Source of the DNA: Pelagibacterium sediminicola
Lineage (GTDB): Bacteria > Pseudomonadota > Alphaproteobacteria > Rhizobiales > Devosiaceae
Assembly (NCBI RefSeq): GCF_003390885.1
Contig: NZ_QMEL01000011.1
Location: forward strand, 1-63,410
DNA length: 63,410 bases
Reading direction: 5' to 3'
This document shows positions 46,225 to 50,650 of the stretch, piece by piece (within the stretch, counting starts at the first letter, position 1; the number at the start of each line of letters is the position of its first letter). The position numbers were made by a program, and so were the translations under genes. Under the pieces are notes generated by a model. That model searched no databases. It was not told the origin of the DNA and worked only from the letters and a program-made list of their open reading frames with translations.

Positions 46225-47193
<969 letters not shown>

Positions 47194-47225
47194 GCAGCAA
47201 TATAGTAAAAGAGGGGACAAGGAGG

Positions 47226-48119
47226 ATGCTGGATTGGGACAAGCTGCGCATATTTCATGTCGCCGCTGAATCGGGAAGTTTCACCCATTCCGCCGAAAAG
47301 CTCGGCATGTCCCAGTCGGCCGTTTCGCGCCAGATTTCCGCGCTCGAGGAAGACCTTGGCCTGAAACTCTTCATCCGGCACGCGCGCGGGCTGGTGCTGA
47401 CCGAGGTGGGCGAACAACTCTTCCGCACCGCCCACCGCATGGCATGGGAACTTCAATCGGTCCACGCCCAGATGACCGAAAGCCAGGATGTGCCCACCGG
47501 CCCGCTTCTGGTCACCACTACGGTCGGGTTCGGCTCGACCTGGCTCACCAACCGCATCCACGAATTCGTGAACCTTTATCCCACCATCCAGCTCGAAATA
47601 AAGCTCGACGACGCCGAGCTCGACCTTGCCATGCGCGAGGCGGACGTCGCCATTCGGCTGCACCGGCCCAACCAGTCCGAGATGATCCAGCGCAAGCTGT
47701 TCACCGTGCACTTCCACATCTACGCCGCCCAAAGTTACATCGCCGAGCACGGCGCGCCGCAAAGCGTGGAGGAACTTGACGCCCACAAGATCATCTCCTT
47801 TGGCGAGCCCTCGCCCTCCTATCTGGGCGACGTCAACTTTCTCGAACGCATCGGCCGCCCCGATAACAGCCCGCGCCGCACCGCGCTCAAGGTCAACGCC
47901 ATCTACGGCATGATGCAGGCGTGCCGCCAGGGCATCGGCATTGCCATGCTGCCCCACTACATCACCGAACAGGAGCCCAGCCTCGTCGAAGTGCTCCCCG
48001 ATCTCGAACTGCCCGCCTTCGAGACCTATTTCGTCTACCCCCCTGCCCTCAAGAACTCCAAACGCGTCGCCGTCTTCCGCGACTTCCTCGTCGAAAAGGC
48101 CCGCGACTGGAATTTCTGA
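47226..48119 (+). CDS. LysR-family transcriptional regulator
   Basis: A 297-residue LysR protein. The N-terminal helix-turn-helix reads LRIFHVAAESGSFTHSAEKL, GMSQSAVSRQISALEEDLG; the C-terminal part is a periplasmic-binding-like ligand domain (FVNLYPTIQLEIKLDD). The ATG at 47226 is preceded by GGAGG. Its closeness to trxB suggests co-transcription and perhaps a redox- or metabolism-linked role, but the ligand and targets are unknown. Confidence 0.93.
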   Translation: MLDWDKLRIFHVAAESGSFTHSAEKLGMSQSAVSRQISALEEDLGLKLFIRHARGLVLTEVGEQLFRTAHRMAWELQSVHAQMTESQDVPTGPLLVTTTVGFGSTWLTNRIHEFVNLYPTIQLEIKLDDAELDLAMREADVAIRLHRPNQSEMIQRKLFTVHFHIYAAQSYIAEHGAPQSVEELDAHKIISFGEPSPSYLGDVNFLERIGRPDNSPRRTALKVNAIYGMMQACRQGIGIAMLPHYITEQEPSLVEVLPDLELPAFETYFVYPPALKNSKRVAVFRDFLVEKARDWNF

Positions 48120-48150
48120 ACCGATCTCTCCAGCCCACAACAGATTCCCT

Positions 48151-48260
48151 TCCCCAAAAGGAGGGAAGTGCTGGCCTTGCGCGTATGGAAGTGCCGAAGA
48201 AAAGGAAGCACCCTCCCCTTGATGGGGAGGGTTGGGGAGGGGTGAAGCCACACACGCAAA
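48151..48260 (+). repeat. Dispersed 110-bp repeat, copy D
   Basis: GAAGTGCTGGCCTTGCGCGT, then AAGGAAGCACCCTCCCCTTG, continuing ATGGGGAGGGTTGGGGAGGG and GTGAAGCCACACACGCA. Closest to copy E. It begins 31 bases after the LysR stop. Confidence 0.8.
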
Positions 48261-48489
48261 TCCATCTGTGGTAGCCCGGCCTCAAGGAGGAAGGGACAAA
48301 AAGAGCCGGCACGTTCGCCATTACCCCTGCGACACAATGACAACCCTCCCCGCTCCAGCCTGCCACCACCCCGCGCAACCCCCAGTATCCCTGGCCCTTG
48401 CGCACCCTGCACGCCCAGCCATGCACCAGACGCATGGCTGACATGAACCTGCCGGGCTTGCCCTCCATCACTCGAAACACTACTTCCCC
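48261..48489. other. Leader region before the small-RNA array
   Basis: No protein gene is supported here. The segment carries the first copy of a conserved GCATGGCTGAYATG word (48432-48445) that recurs upstream of the two other units at 48701 and 48956. It may hold a promoter for unit 1, for example the CTTGCG at 48398, but no confident -10 is seen. Confidence 0.4.
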
Positions 48490-48607
48490 GGCAGACATTG
48501 CGCGCTTTTCTCCTCCTCCCTTTGAGCGCGTTTGATGTTCCCTCCTTGCGAGAGGCTTACCTCTTGCACTCCGCCCCGCTCCCCCCTCGAGCGGGGCTTT
48601 TTTTTGC
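48490..48607 (+). ncRNA. CCTCCTCCC-motif small RNA, unit 1 (cuckoo/CcsR-like)
   Basis: The motif CCTCCTCCC at 48512-48520 sits in the loop of a 6-bp hairpin (CGCGCT at 48501, AGCGCG at 48525). A second hairpin follows (48548-48567), then a strong terminator. This is the layout of the cuckoo RNA family (CcsR RNAs of Rhodobacter), where the loop presents an anti-Shine-Dalgarno-like sequence. Boundaries are estimated; the 5' end is not known. Confidence 0.6.
48574..48605 (+). terminator. Terminator of small-RNA unit 1
   Basis: CCCCGCTC and GAGCGGGG form an 8-bp stem, followed by C and eight T. Confidence 0.9.
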
Positions 48608-48716
48608 CCATGCGCCAGCCCGCCCTTCCTCATCGCCATCGTGGCCATCTCTGGTTCTGTTAGGCGCTCTAAGTGCAAATCGGCAACACATGCACGAGAT
48701 GCATGGCTGCCATGTC

Positions 48717-48743
48717 TAATCACGACTTCCCAAGTCGTGATTA
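48717..48743. repeat. 12-bp perfect stem with three-base loop
   Basis: TAATCACGACTT-CCC-AAGTCGTGATTA. It is too perfect for chance and has no T-run on either strand, so it is more likely an operator or an RNA 5' stem than a terminator. It lies between the conserved GCATGGCTG word and unit 2. Confidence 0.6.
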
Positions 48744-48769
48744 AGCATGCATATAGAGACCGTCACTGA

Positions 48770-48931
48770 CGCGGCGCGCTTTTCCTCCTCCCAAGCCCCC
48801 CGCGAGGTGACACTGAGCGGGAAAGGTTTCTCCTCCTCCCTTCCTGACCCGCTCCACGGCCTTAATCGATCCTCCTCCCTCGATTTTGGCCGACAGATCA
48901 GGCCCCACCGCAAGGTGGGGCCTCTTTTTTT
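48770..48931 (+). ncRNA. CCTCCTCCC-motif small RNA, unit 2 (three motifs)
   Basis: Motifs at 48784, 48832 and 48871. The second is in the loop of GAGCGGG/CCCGCTC (48815-48821 with 48848-48854). The third is in the loop of AATCGA/TCGATT (48864-48869 with 48880-48885) with an outer GGCC/GGCC clamp. The first has a weaker GC stem. One terminator ends the set, so the three hairpins are probably made as one transcript that is processed, as reported for CcsR RNAs. 5' end estimated. Confidence 0.65.
48900..48931 (+). terminator. Terminator of small-RNA unit 2
   Basis: AGGCCCCACC-GCAA-GGTGGGGCCT is a perfect 10-bp stem with a four-base loop, then C and seven T. Confidence 0.93.
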
Positions 48932-48980
48932 GCCCGCTCGGGCGATTTGCCTCGTGCATGGCTGATATGCGCAATTACGC

Positions 48981-49009
48981 ATTGAAGCGGGGAACCCCTG
49001 GCCCCATAT
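48981..49009 (+). promoter_or_regulatory. RpoH (sigma-32)-type promoter before small-RNA unit 3
   Basis: ATTGAAG (48981-48987) and CCCCATAT (49002-49009) match the heat-shock consensus CTTGAA and CCCCATNT with the usual spacing. CcsR-type RNAs in Rhodobacter are known to be driven by RpoHI/RpoHII, so the finding fits. The transcript would start near 49016. Confidence 0.65.
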
Positions 49010-49015
49010 TCGCAT

Positions 49016-49209
49016 TGTCAATCGAGCGACGCGCCCCTCCTCCTCCCTGGGCCCCTCGCTCATGACAACCGAACCGGGGTTCGTATCCTCCTCCCACGAA
49101 CCCCCGTTCACCCGGCCCGCCGTATCCTCCTCCCACGGTCCGGCCGCAAACTGAAAAGATTTGGGTTCGCCCGATCAAGGCTCCGTCTTCTGGCGGAGCC
49201 TCTTTTTTT
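49016..49209 (+). ncRNA. CCTCCTCCC-motif small RNA, unit 3 (three motifs)
   Basis: Motifs at 49039, 49087 and 49126. The second is in the loop of a perfect 9-bp stem, GGGGTTCGT (49076-49084) with ACGAACCCC (49096-49104). The third is closed by CCGT/ACGG with further bulged GC pairs. The first has a GC-rich surround. The unit starts at an RpoH-type promoter and ends at a strong terminator, which makes it the best-defined of the three. Confidence 0.7.
49178..49209 (+). terminator. Terminator of small-RNA unit 3
   Basis: AGGCTCCG-TCTTCTGG-CGGAGCCT forms an 8-bp stem followed by C and seven T. Confidence 0.92.
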
Positions 49210-49233
49210 GCTGCGCACGGCAGCGGACTGCAA

Positions 49234-49372
49234 CATCGCAGCCCCCTCATCCGACCTCCACTCCGTTCCGGCCCCCTTCTCCCACGAGGGGAGAAGGGGA
49301 ACCGGGGCCGCCACACGAGCCCCCCTCTCCCCCCGTGGGAGAGGGGTTGGGGGTGAGGGGGTCAGCGATGCC
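49234..49372 (+). repeat. Dispersed 140-bp repeat, copy 1
   Basis: It begins CATCGCAGCCCCCTCATCCG and ends GGGGGTGAGGGGGTCAGCG, with two internal hairpins (CCCTTCTCCC...GGGAGAAGGG and CCCTCTCCCC...GGGAGAGGGG). It matches the reverse complement of 54994-55142. It fills the gap between the small-RNA array and the aminotransferase gene. Confidence 0.75.
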
Positions 49373-49399
49373 GGCATCATGCTCCGTAGCAGGCTGCCC

Positions 49400-50650
<1,251 letters not shown>

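Follow-up and report, generated by a model that had tools for sequence, protein, structure and literature searches.

A seven-motif anti-Shine-Dalgarno array downstream of an lsrB/vtlR-type gene in Pelagibacterium sediminicola as a probable LsrB small-RNA locus

The window analysed here, a 63,410-nucleotide stretch of the Pelagibacterium sediminicola genome, carries seven copies of the motif CCTCCTCCC in close succession. This raises the question of which family of small RNAs they belong to, and which regulator would control them. An earlier note had described them as an orphan array of stress-induced CcsR/cuckoo RNAs, larger than the Rhodobacter example. Our analysis points, with a probability of about three in four, to a compact LsrB/VtlR small-RNA regulon that would repress the translation of transporter mRNAs.

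The array and its neighbours

A motif scan of the window placed all seven copies of CCTCCTCCC on the + strand, inside 623 bases and exactly where the earlier note had put them. In 100 dinucleotide shuffles of the whole window the mean count was 1.02 and the largest 4. Genome-wide, CCTCCTCCC gave 39 matches vs 27 for a reversed control pattern, and among the other 32 genome copies there was no cluster of three or more within 1 kb; their one close pair lies on opposite strands (contig C40, 6897/6920). A terminator scan divided the array, again as the note had claimed, into three units with one, three and three motifs, each closed by a strong intrinsic terminator that is followed by a T run. The motifs had been said to lie mostly in hairpin loops, and both the MFE and the centroid folds of the three inferred transcripts placed 7/7 in predicted loops. 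The genes and units are as follows.

46243..47193, + strand: trxB, thioredoxin reductase (TIGR01292, 405.2 bits vs a cut-off of 343.45)
47226..48119, + strand: LysR-type regulator (LysR HTH domain, substrate domain), treated here as the lsrB/vtlR ortholog
48493..48606, + strand: unit 1, AbcR-like sRNA of about 114 nt, start inferred
48512-48520, + strand: unit 1 aSD1, the motif, in the 5' hairpin loop
48537-48545, + strand: unit 1 aSD2, GTTCCCTCC, in the linker to the next hairpin
48573-48597, + strand: unit 1 terminator
48762..48932, + strand: unit 2, NfeR1/cuckoo-like sRNA of about 171 nt (inferred), loops at 48784, 48832 and 48871
48900-48923, + strand: unit 2 separate terminator
49017..49210, + strand: unit 3, NfeR1/cuckoo-like sRNA of about 194 nt (inferred), loops at 49039, 49087 and 49126
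49178-49201, + strand: unit 3 separate terminator

A protein-coding reading of the region was tested on three reverse-strand ORFs (48049-48723, 48716-49111 and 49108-49539) and rejected, as none had a Pfam match at E 0.01. GC-rich REP-like inverted repeats stand on either side of the array (window 48205-48245 and 49270-49350), with comparable sequence also elsewhere in the window. A single end of a MITE-like palindromic element was observed at 48636-48676; its other genome copies occur as inverted pairs (contigs C35 and C38) with inner GATACC/GGTATC repeats.

The gene order is trxB, lsrB, the array and then an aminotransferase gene on the opposite strand. We took the LysR-type gene to be the LsrB/VtlR ortholog because it is matched in near-single copy across the order and its counterparts in several families have Rfam ar15 matches beside them. 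At E <= 1e-70 its protein was matched in 112/121 genomes of the order, with two matches in only 2. Matches to ar15 were found in 15/121 genomes (above the cut-off in 4) and adjoin lsrB in several families; ar15 matches or box-led anti-Shine-Dalgarno (aSD) units lie downstream of lsrB in other families too. The closest relatives of the protein (89-92% identity) come from Pelagibacterium and near MAGs, followed mostly by Devosia and Maritalea; Pelagibacterium and Maritalea belong to the Devosiaceae, order Hyphomicrobiales. The order trxB-vtlR-abcR1-abcR2 is reported for A. tumefaciens (PMC7486931), and abcR1/2 are reported to adjoin lsrB in S. meliloti (PMC8844928). The array is thus not an orphan, since it occupies the place that AbcR has after lsrB/vtlR: the gene of its likely regulator ends 392 bases before the first motif. 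As a separate observation, the lsrB start codon is directly preceded by AAGGAGG (window 47219-47225), with which the array loops could in principle pair, a possible feedback.

Promoters and LsrB/VtlR boxes

The reported consensus of the LsrB/VtlR box is GCAT-N3-TG-N3-T (PMC8844928, PMC7486931). Each of the three units is preceded by a sequence GCATGGCTGnnnT that fits it, followed after 12 nt by a -35-like hexamer and, after another 17 nt, by a -10-like hexamer.

48432..48444, + strand: unit 1 LsrB/VtlR box GCATGGCTGACAT, with the upstream extension TGCA-N6-GCAT
48457-48462 and 48480-48485, + strand: unit 1 -35 CTTGCC and -10 CTACTT
48701..48713, + strand: unit 2 LsrB/VtlR box GCATGGCTGCCAT, with TGCA-N6-GCAT
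48726-48731 and 48749-48754, + strand: unit 2 -35 CTTCCC and -10 GCATAT
48956..48968, + strand: unit 3 LsrB/VtlR box GCATGGCTGATAT, TGCA arm of the longer site absent
48981-48986 and 49004-49009, + strand: unit 3 -35 ATTGAA and -10 CCATAT

This spacing equals the one implied by the box published for PabcR1, at -61 to -49 (PMC8844928), so that the array resembles AbcR1/AbcR2 of Sinorhizobium and Agrobacterium both in lying downstream of trxB-lsrB and in its box at equal spacing. The TGCA-N6-GCAT of units 1 and 2 has, counted from the inferred starts, the form and place of the LsrB site reported for the NfeR1 promoter at about -72 to -57 (PMC10746234). A tally over 144 units whose box has no mismatch or one gave the consensus GCATgGCTGnCAT, with ATTGCT as the commonest -35 and CTATAT and TCATAT as the commonest -10. 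Units 1 and 2 have weak -35 hexamers, and a generic sigma-70 scan flagged 0/3 of the inferred promoters, its sole hit lying elsewhere, at 49062. The narrow box form GCATGGCTGNNNT has 12 matches genome-wide, three of them in the array; judged by eye, none of the other nine has an array-like -35 plus -10 at the array spacing.

LsrB is reported to activate AbcR1 (PMC8844928) and NfeR1 (PMC10746234) in S. meliloti. Since box, spacing and loops are shared with these S. meliloti systems, we infer the same activation, and silencing by pairing, for the array; the transcription starts are likewise carried over from relatives. By this analogy, LsrB is the likely activator of all three units. The box on every unit differs from S. 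meliloti, where abcR2 is reported to depend on RpoH1 (PMC8844928). The promoters bear the LsrB box, and the LsrB protein has Cys233 as its only cysteine, without the Cys144/Cys273 pair described in A. tumefaciens LsrB (PMC11975290). An oxidative signal to LsrB is therefore not assumed, and the heat or oxidative induction suggested earlier is not indicated by these sequences, though stress induction is possible.

Two other features of these promoters may be mentioned. An 18-nt inverted repeat with the core AATCACGACTT-CCC-AAGTCGTGATT lies over the -35 and spacer of unit 2 (window 48711-48749), and four other unit-2 promoters of the Pelagibacterium type (L021, L024, L026 and L028) retain its AAGTCGTGATTA half; the repeat could be a site for a second regulator. 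In eight Devosia loci (L030, L037, L041, L050, L055, L062, L080 and L083; for example L041:6783) the second triple unit contains, between its -35 and -10, a GACC-N4-GGTC dyad, a possible operator of another regulator, which is missing from unit 3 of the window.

Two kinds of RNA unit

In AbcR1/2 the 5' loop reportedly carries CUCCUCCC, and UUCCCCUC lies between hairpins 1 and 2. Unit 1 shows this layout in its single-sequence fold: aSD1 forms a CUCCUCCC loop in the 5' hairpin, aSD2 stands between hairpins 1 and 2, and the linker is followed by a hairpin and then the terminator, which makes three hairpins including the terminator. It also adjoins lsrB, with its box at -61 to -49 from the inferred start. 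On this sequence layout, with a single aSD loop and another aSD in the linker, unit 1 is AbcR-like; its aSD2 reads UUCCCUCC, unlike the UUCCCCUC of AbcR. Across the loci compared, TTCCC(C/T)TC occurs within 40 nt after the motif in 36/51 single-motif units vs 0/103 triple units, and aSD2 is absent from 15/51 single-motif units. GTTCCCCTC was found at the aSD2 place in 11/11 aligned ar15-matching rows (11 of the 19 ar15 matches). An alifold consensus recovered the terminator of unit 1 alone, and its other hairpins rest on single-sequence folds.

Units 2 and 3 are of another kind. Their three CCUCCUCCC loops are unpaired in each hairpin and close to invariant, whereas the stems vary. In unit 3, two-sided changes were found in 27/40 stem pairs (11 sequences of <85% identity), and the covariation score was 0.543 vs 0.212 for shuffled and at most 0.137 for slid alignments. 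Unit 2 showed two-sided changes in 25/33 pairs (13 sequences), with a score of 0.492 vs 0.236 shuffled and at most 0.120 slid. For both units 0/500 shuffles reached the score; by another measure, that of further pair types, the unit 2 value was reached by 26/500. A cuckoo RNA is reported to have 2-4 hairpins with a conserved loop and variable stems (PMC4504443; related text in PMC3927594). Units 2 and 3 fit this description in their 2-4 hairpins, conserved loop motif and unconserved helix sequence; unit 1, with one conserved-motif loop, does not. We read units 2 and 3 as paralogous, NfeR1/cuckoo-like RNAs, unlike unit 1 in kind.

The covariance-model search that the note had proposed assigned the array to no Rfam family at gathering thresholds. 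The best family for units 2 and 3 was ar14 (RF02344), with 39.5 and 32.3 bits vs a gathering score of 58.8. Unit 1 scored 35.1 bits, over linker and terminator, with the MmgR/suhB family (RF00519, cut-off 41), which it resembles to that extent, and 23.1 bits with ar14. At E <= 1e-3 ar15 (RF02345) had no match in this genome, and it was absent among the sub-threshold array matches listed, a list that hides the lower-scoring match where families share a clan. When 11 of the 19 other-family ar15 matches were made into a model, it gave 18.8, 16.1 and 22.6 bits for units 1, 2 and 3, and 16.9 bits for an unrelated site in the window. It was rejected as a classifier, since it matched units of all kinds, not far above chance.

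The ar14 scores bear on one alternative, that units 1, 2 and 3 alike are genuine alpha-r14 (NfeR1) genes which moved beside lsrB while the AbcR gene was lost. Units 2 and 3 are the sole ar14 matches of this genome at E <= 0.001, and NfeR1 is activated by LsrB elsewhere through TGCA-N6-GCAT, which units 1 and 2 have in common. Like NfeR1, for which three identical, redundant aSD motifs acting by base pairing are reported (PMC10746234), units 2 and 3 carry three CCUCCUCCC loops on variable stems, and the TGCA-N6-GCAT of unit 2 (and of unit 1) matches the NfeR1 promoter in kind and place from the inferred start. Against this, both units stay below the ar14 cut-off, and the Rfam model ends with the third motif in the last hairpin before the U run, whereas units 2 and 3 have a terminator hairpin separate from the third motif hairpin. 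They are also longer than NfeR1 (115 nt) at their inferred lengths, they stand in two copies downstream of lsrB, and unit 3 has no TGCA arm. Unit 1, with its one aSD loop and AbcR-type linker aSD2, does not fit an alpha-r14 gene either. We consider this alternative unlikely, and prefer the reading of one AbcR-like RNA with two triple-loop RNAs that stand in the place of AbcR2 at an AbcR locus.

The identity proposed earlier, CcsR/cuckoo, thus stood in part: the units are aSD-loop sRNAs and the cuckoo layout is that of units 2 and 3, whereas unit 1 and the assignment to a CcsR/CIN1 locus did not hold. Such a locus would carry RpoH-driven cuckoo RNAs of a stress response, with its DUF1127 gene lost. 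Conserved CCUCCUCCC loops on unconserved stems and the tandem arrangement are indeed shared with CcsR1-4 (RF02791) of Rhodobacter. For R. sphaeroides, four CcsR RNAs with an RpoHI/RpoHII promoter and a role in stress defence are reported, which share a transcript with ccaF1 and arise by processing of a single precursor. In place of that single ccaF1 co-transcript each unit here has its own box-led promoter and terminator, the box is that of LsrB where an RpoH promoter is reported for CcsR, units 2 and 3 have three loops where CcsR1-4 have two, and the conserved upstream gene is lsrB. The best CcsR1 match was a partial one of 19.3 bits vs a cut-off of 65.3. As the note had stated, no DUF1127 gene stands beside the array; there are 0 on this contig, and the three of the genome lie on two other contigs. 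On the score, the missing DUF1127 gene and the separate box-led promoters, CcsR/CIN1 membership was rejected, and we regard the reading as such a stress locus as quite unlikely. Nor was the claim of a larger array than in Rhodobacter supported, given the four CcsR RNAs of R. sphaeroides and the two aSD stem-loops reported for RS0680a (PMC3927594).

Conservation, predicted targets and meaning of the locus

The array was matched in 12/12 same-genus genomes, each with 6-8 motifs in the fetched stretch of 3.4-3.8 kb, which included lsrB in 9/12. The loops are conserved in relatives, their motifs being near invariant; a lack of such conservation had been named as evidence against the array. When the window was taken together with 80 named lsrB loci, at least one motif group was observed downstream of lsrB in 76/81 (75 of the 80 named loci). 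The distance from lsrB to the array ranged over 110-4258 bases with a median of 1197, and was within 2 kb in 61/76 and beyond it in 15/76. No downstream motif group was found in L052 and L085, nor in L034, L040 and L065, three loci that stop within 34-530 bases of lsrB. The exact-motif pattern was 1-3-3 in 26/76 loci and 3-3 in 14/76; in 9 of these 14 a box-led unit with the changed loop CTCCTCCCTCCC stands ahead of the triples.

These 81 loci contain 107 triple groups, and 103 of them, including the two of the window, have a terminator by our rule and are counted as complete triple units. The box was found before 100 of the 103 (78 exact, 22 with one mismatch), 81-86 nt upstream of the first motif, whereas random 33-position stretches of the same loci contained an exact box in 0.8% and one with a mismatch in 4.8%; the counts are drawn from related genomes and hence are not independent. 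In five Devosia loci (L050:8308, L068:8588, L070:8636, L080:6933 and L100:8406) a further exact LsrB box lies after the last triple unit. It is followed by a terminator about 150 nt on and no CCTCCTCCC, and may mark a fourth unit; these boxes failed the -35/-10 filter.

Beyond the named loci, we sampled the regions downstream of lsrB in 87 genomes out of the 111 non-own ones that have this gene (27 regions are 1500 bases long and one 1003). A box, a -35 with at least 3/6 matches and a CT-rich aSD within 75 nt were present in 24/87. A triple group occurred in 2/87, both Devosiaceae, and a third Devosiaceae region has a 1+2 pattern; in the 84 genomes from other families of the order, 0 triple units were found downstream of lsrB. 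Weak ar14 matches do lie beside lsrB in two other families (G127, 36.0 and 33.4 bits; G147, 37.0 bits), where exact CCTCCTCCC is absent, and as sequence matches these count against a strict limit to the Devosiaceae.

AbcR and NfeR1 aSD motifs are reported to silence mRNAs at the translation start. The mRNA leaders were searched, as the note had suggested, and leaders able to pair with the loops were found. The pattern GGGAGGAG-N4..11-ATG had 15 matches genome-wide vs 3 for its reversed control, and GGAGGAGG-N3..10-ATG had 14 vs 3. Behind either pattern stand 11 distinct ORFs of at least 100 aa, eight of which encode transporter proteins (DctM, two DctQ, two periplasmic binding proteins, an ABC ATPase, a BPD_transp_2 permease and NicO); of the other three, two encode a GH43 enzyme and a molybdopterin oxidoreductase, and one, of 110 aa, has no match. 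With AAGGAGA as control, 3/19 distinct ORFs of at least 100 aa were transporter proteins. The difference between 8/11 and 3/19 (one-sided Fisher p = 0.003; ABC/TRAP alone, 7/11 vs 2/19, p = 0.004) comes from a small and partly post-hoc sample, in which ORFs <100 aa were dropped, 30/68 AAGGAGA control matches were taken, PhoU was not counted as transport and GGAGGAGG was picked after the GGGAGGAG result had been seen. The predicted pairing sites thus probably favour mainly transporter genes.

Taken together, LsrB made from the upstream gene would bind the box 12 nt before the -35 of the three promoters and activate unit 1, the AbcR-like sRNA, together with units 2 and 3, the paralogous pair of NfeR1/cuckoo-like sRNAs. 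Each RNA would be released at its own terminator, and the exposed CCUCCUCCC loops would pair with GGGAGGAG-type Shine-Dalgarno sequences, blocking translation of a set of mRNAs, chiefly those of ABC and TRAP transporter genes. The loops could also serve chiefly as decoys, either as a sponge for another RNA or protein or as a general mimic of the 16S rRNA 3' end. Three identical loops, near-invariant letters and freely varying stems would suit titration equally well, but published experiments on NfeR1 and AbcR report mRNA repression through these motifs, and the predicted pairing sites are biased to transporter genes; we hold a decoy role to be very unlikely and retain that of LsrB-driven silencing.

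Every ingredient of the locus is already known. What appears to be undescribed is their combination downstream of lsrB, along with a triple unit whose terminator stands apart and, in our sample, the restriction of this unit to a single family. A literature search returned no account of the array and nothing pairing Devosia with AbcR1 (the species list of the original cuckoo RNA description fell outside the search), and for Pelagibacterium and sRNA a single item, on another topic by its title.

It is tempting to speculate, though we regard this as tentative and somewhat doubtful, that the Devosiaceae gathered an LsrB-driven AbcR-type RNA and duplicated three-loop RNAs which are kept apart in S. 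meliloti, the three-loop RNAs having arisen by the addition of aSD hairpins behind a shared LsrB promoter. The number of loops would then set the strength or breadth of transporter silencing, and if this is true, alpha-r14 and alpha-r15 would be branches of one LsrB small-RNA lineage. If our main reading is correct, this window brings together, within 2 kb, a regulator gene and a group of sRNAs under its control. The locus would lend itself naturally to two questions, namely what leads bacteria to multiply the same anti-Shine-Dalgarno loop and what the relationship between AbcR and NfeR1 is. Pelagibacterium and Devosia would also join the symbionts and pathogens in which the LsrB/VtlR-sRNA circuit is known, and TRAP transporters would form a predicted group of its targets.
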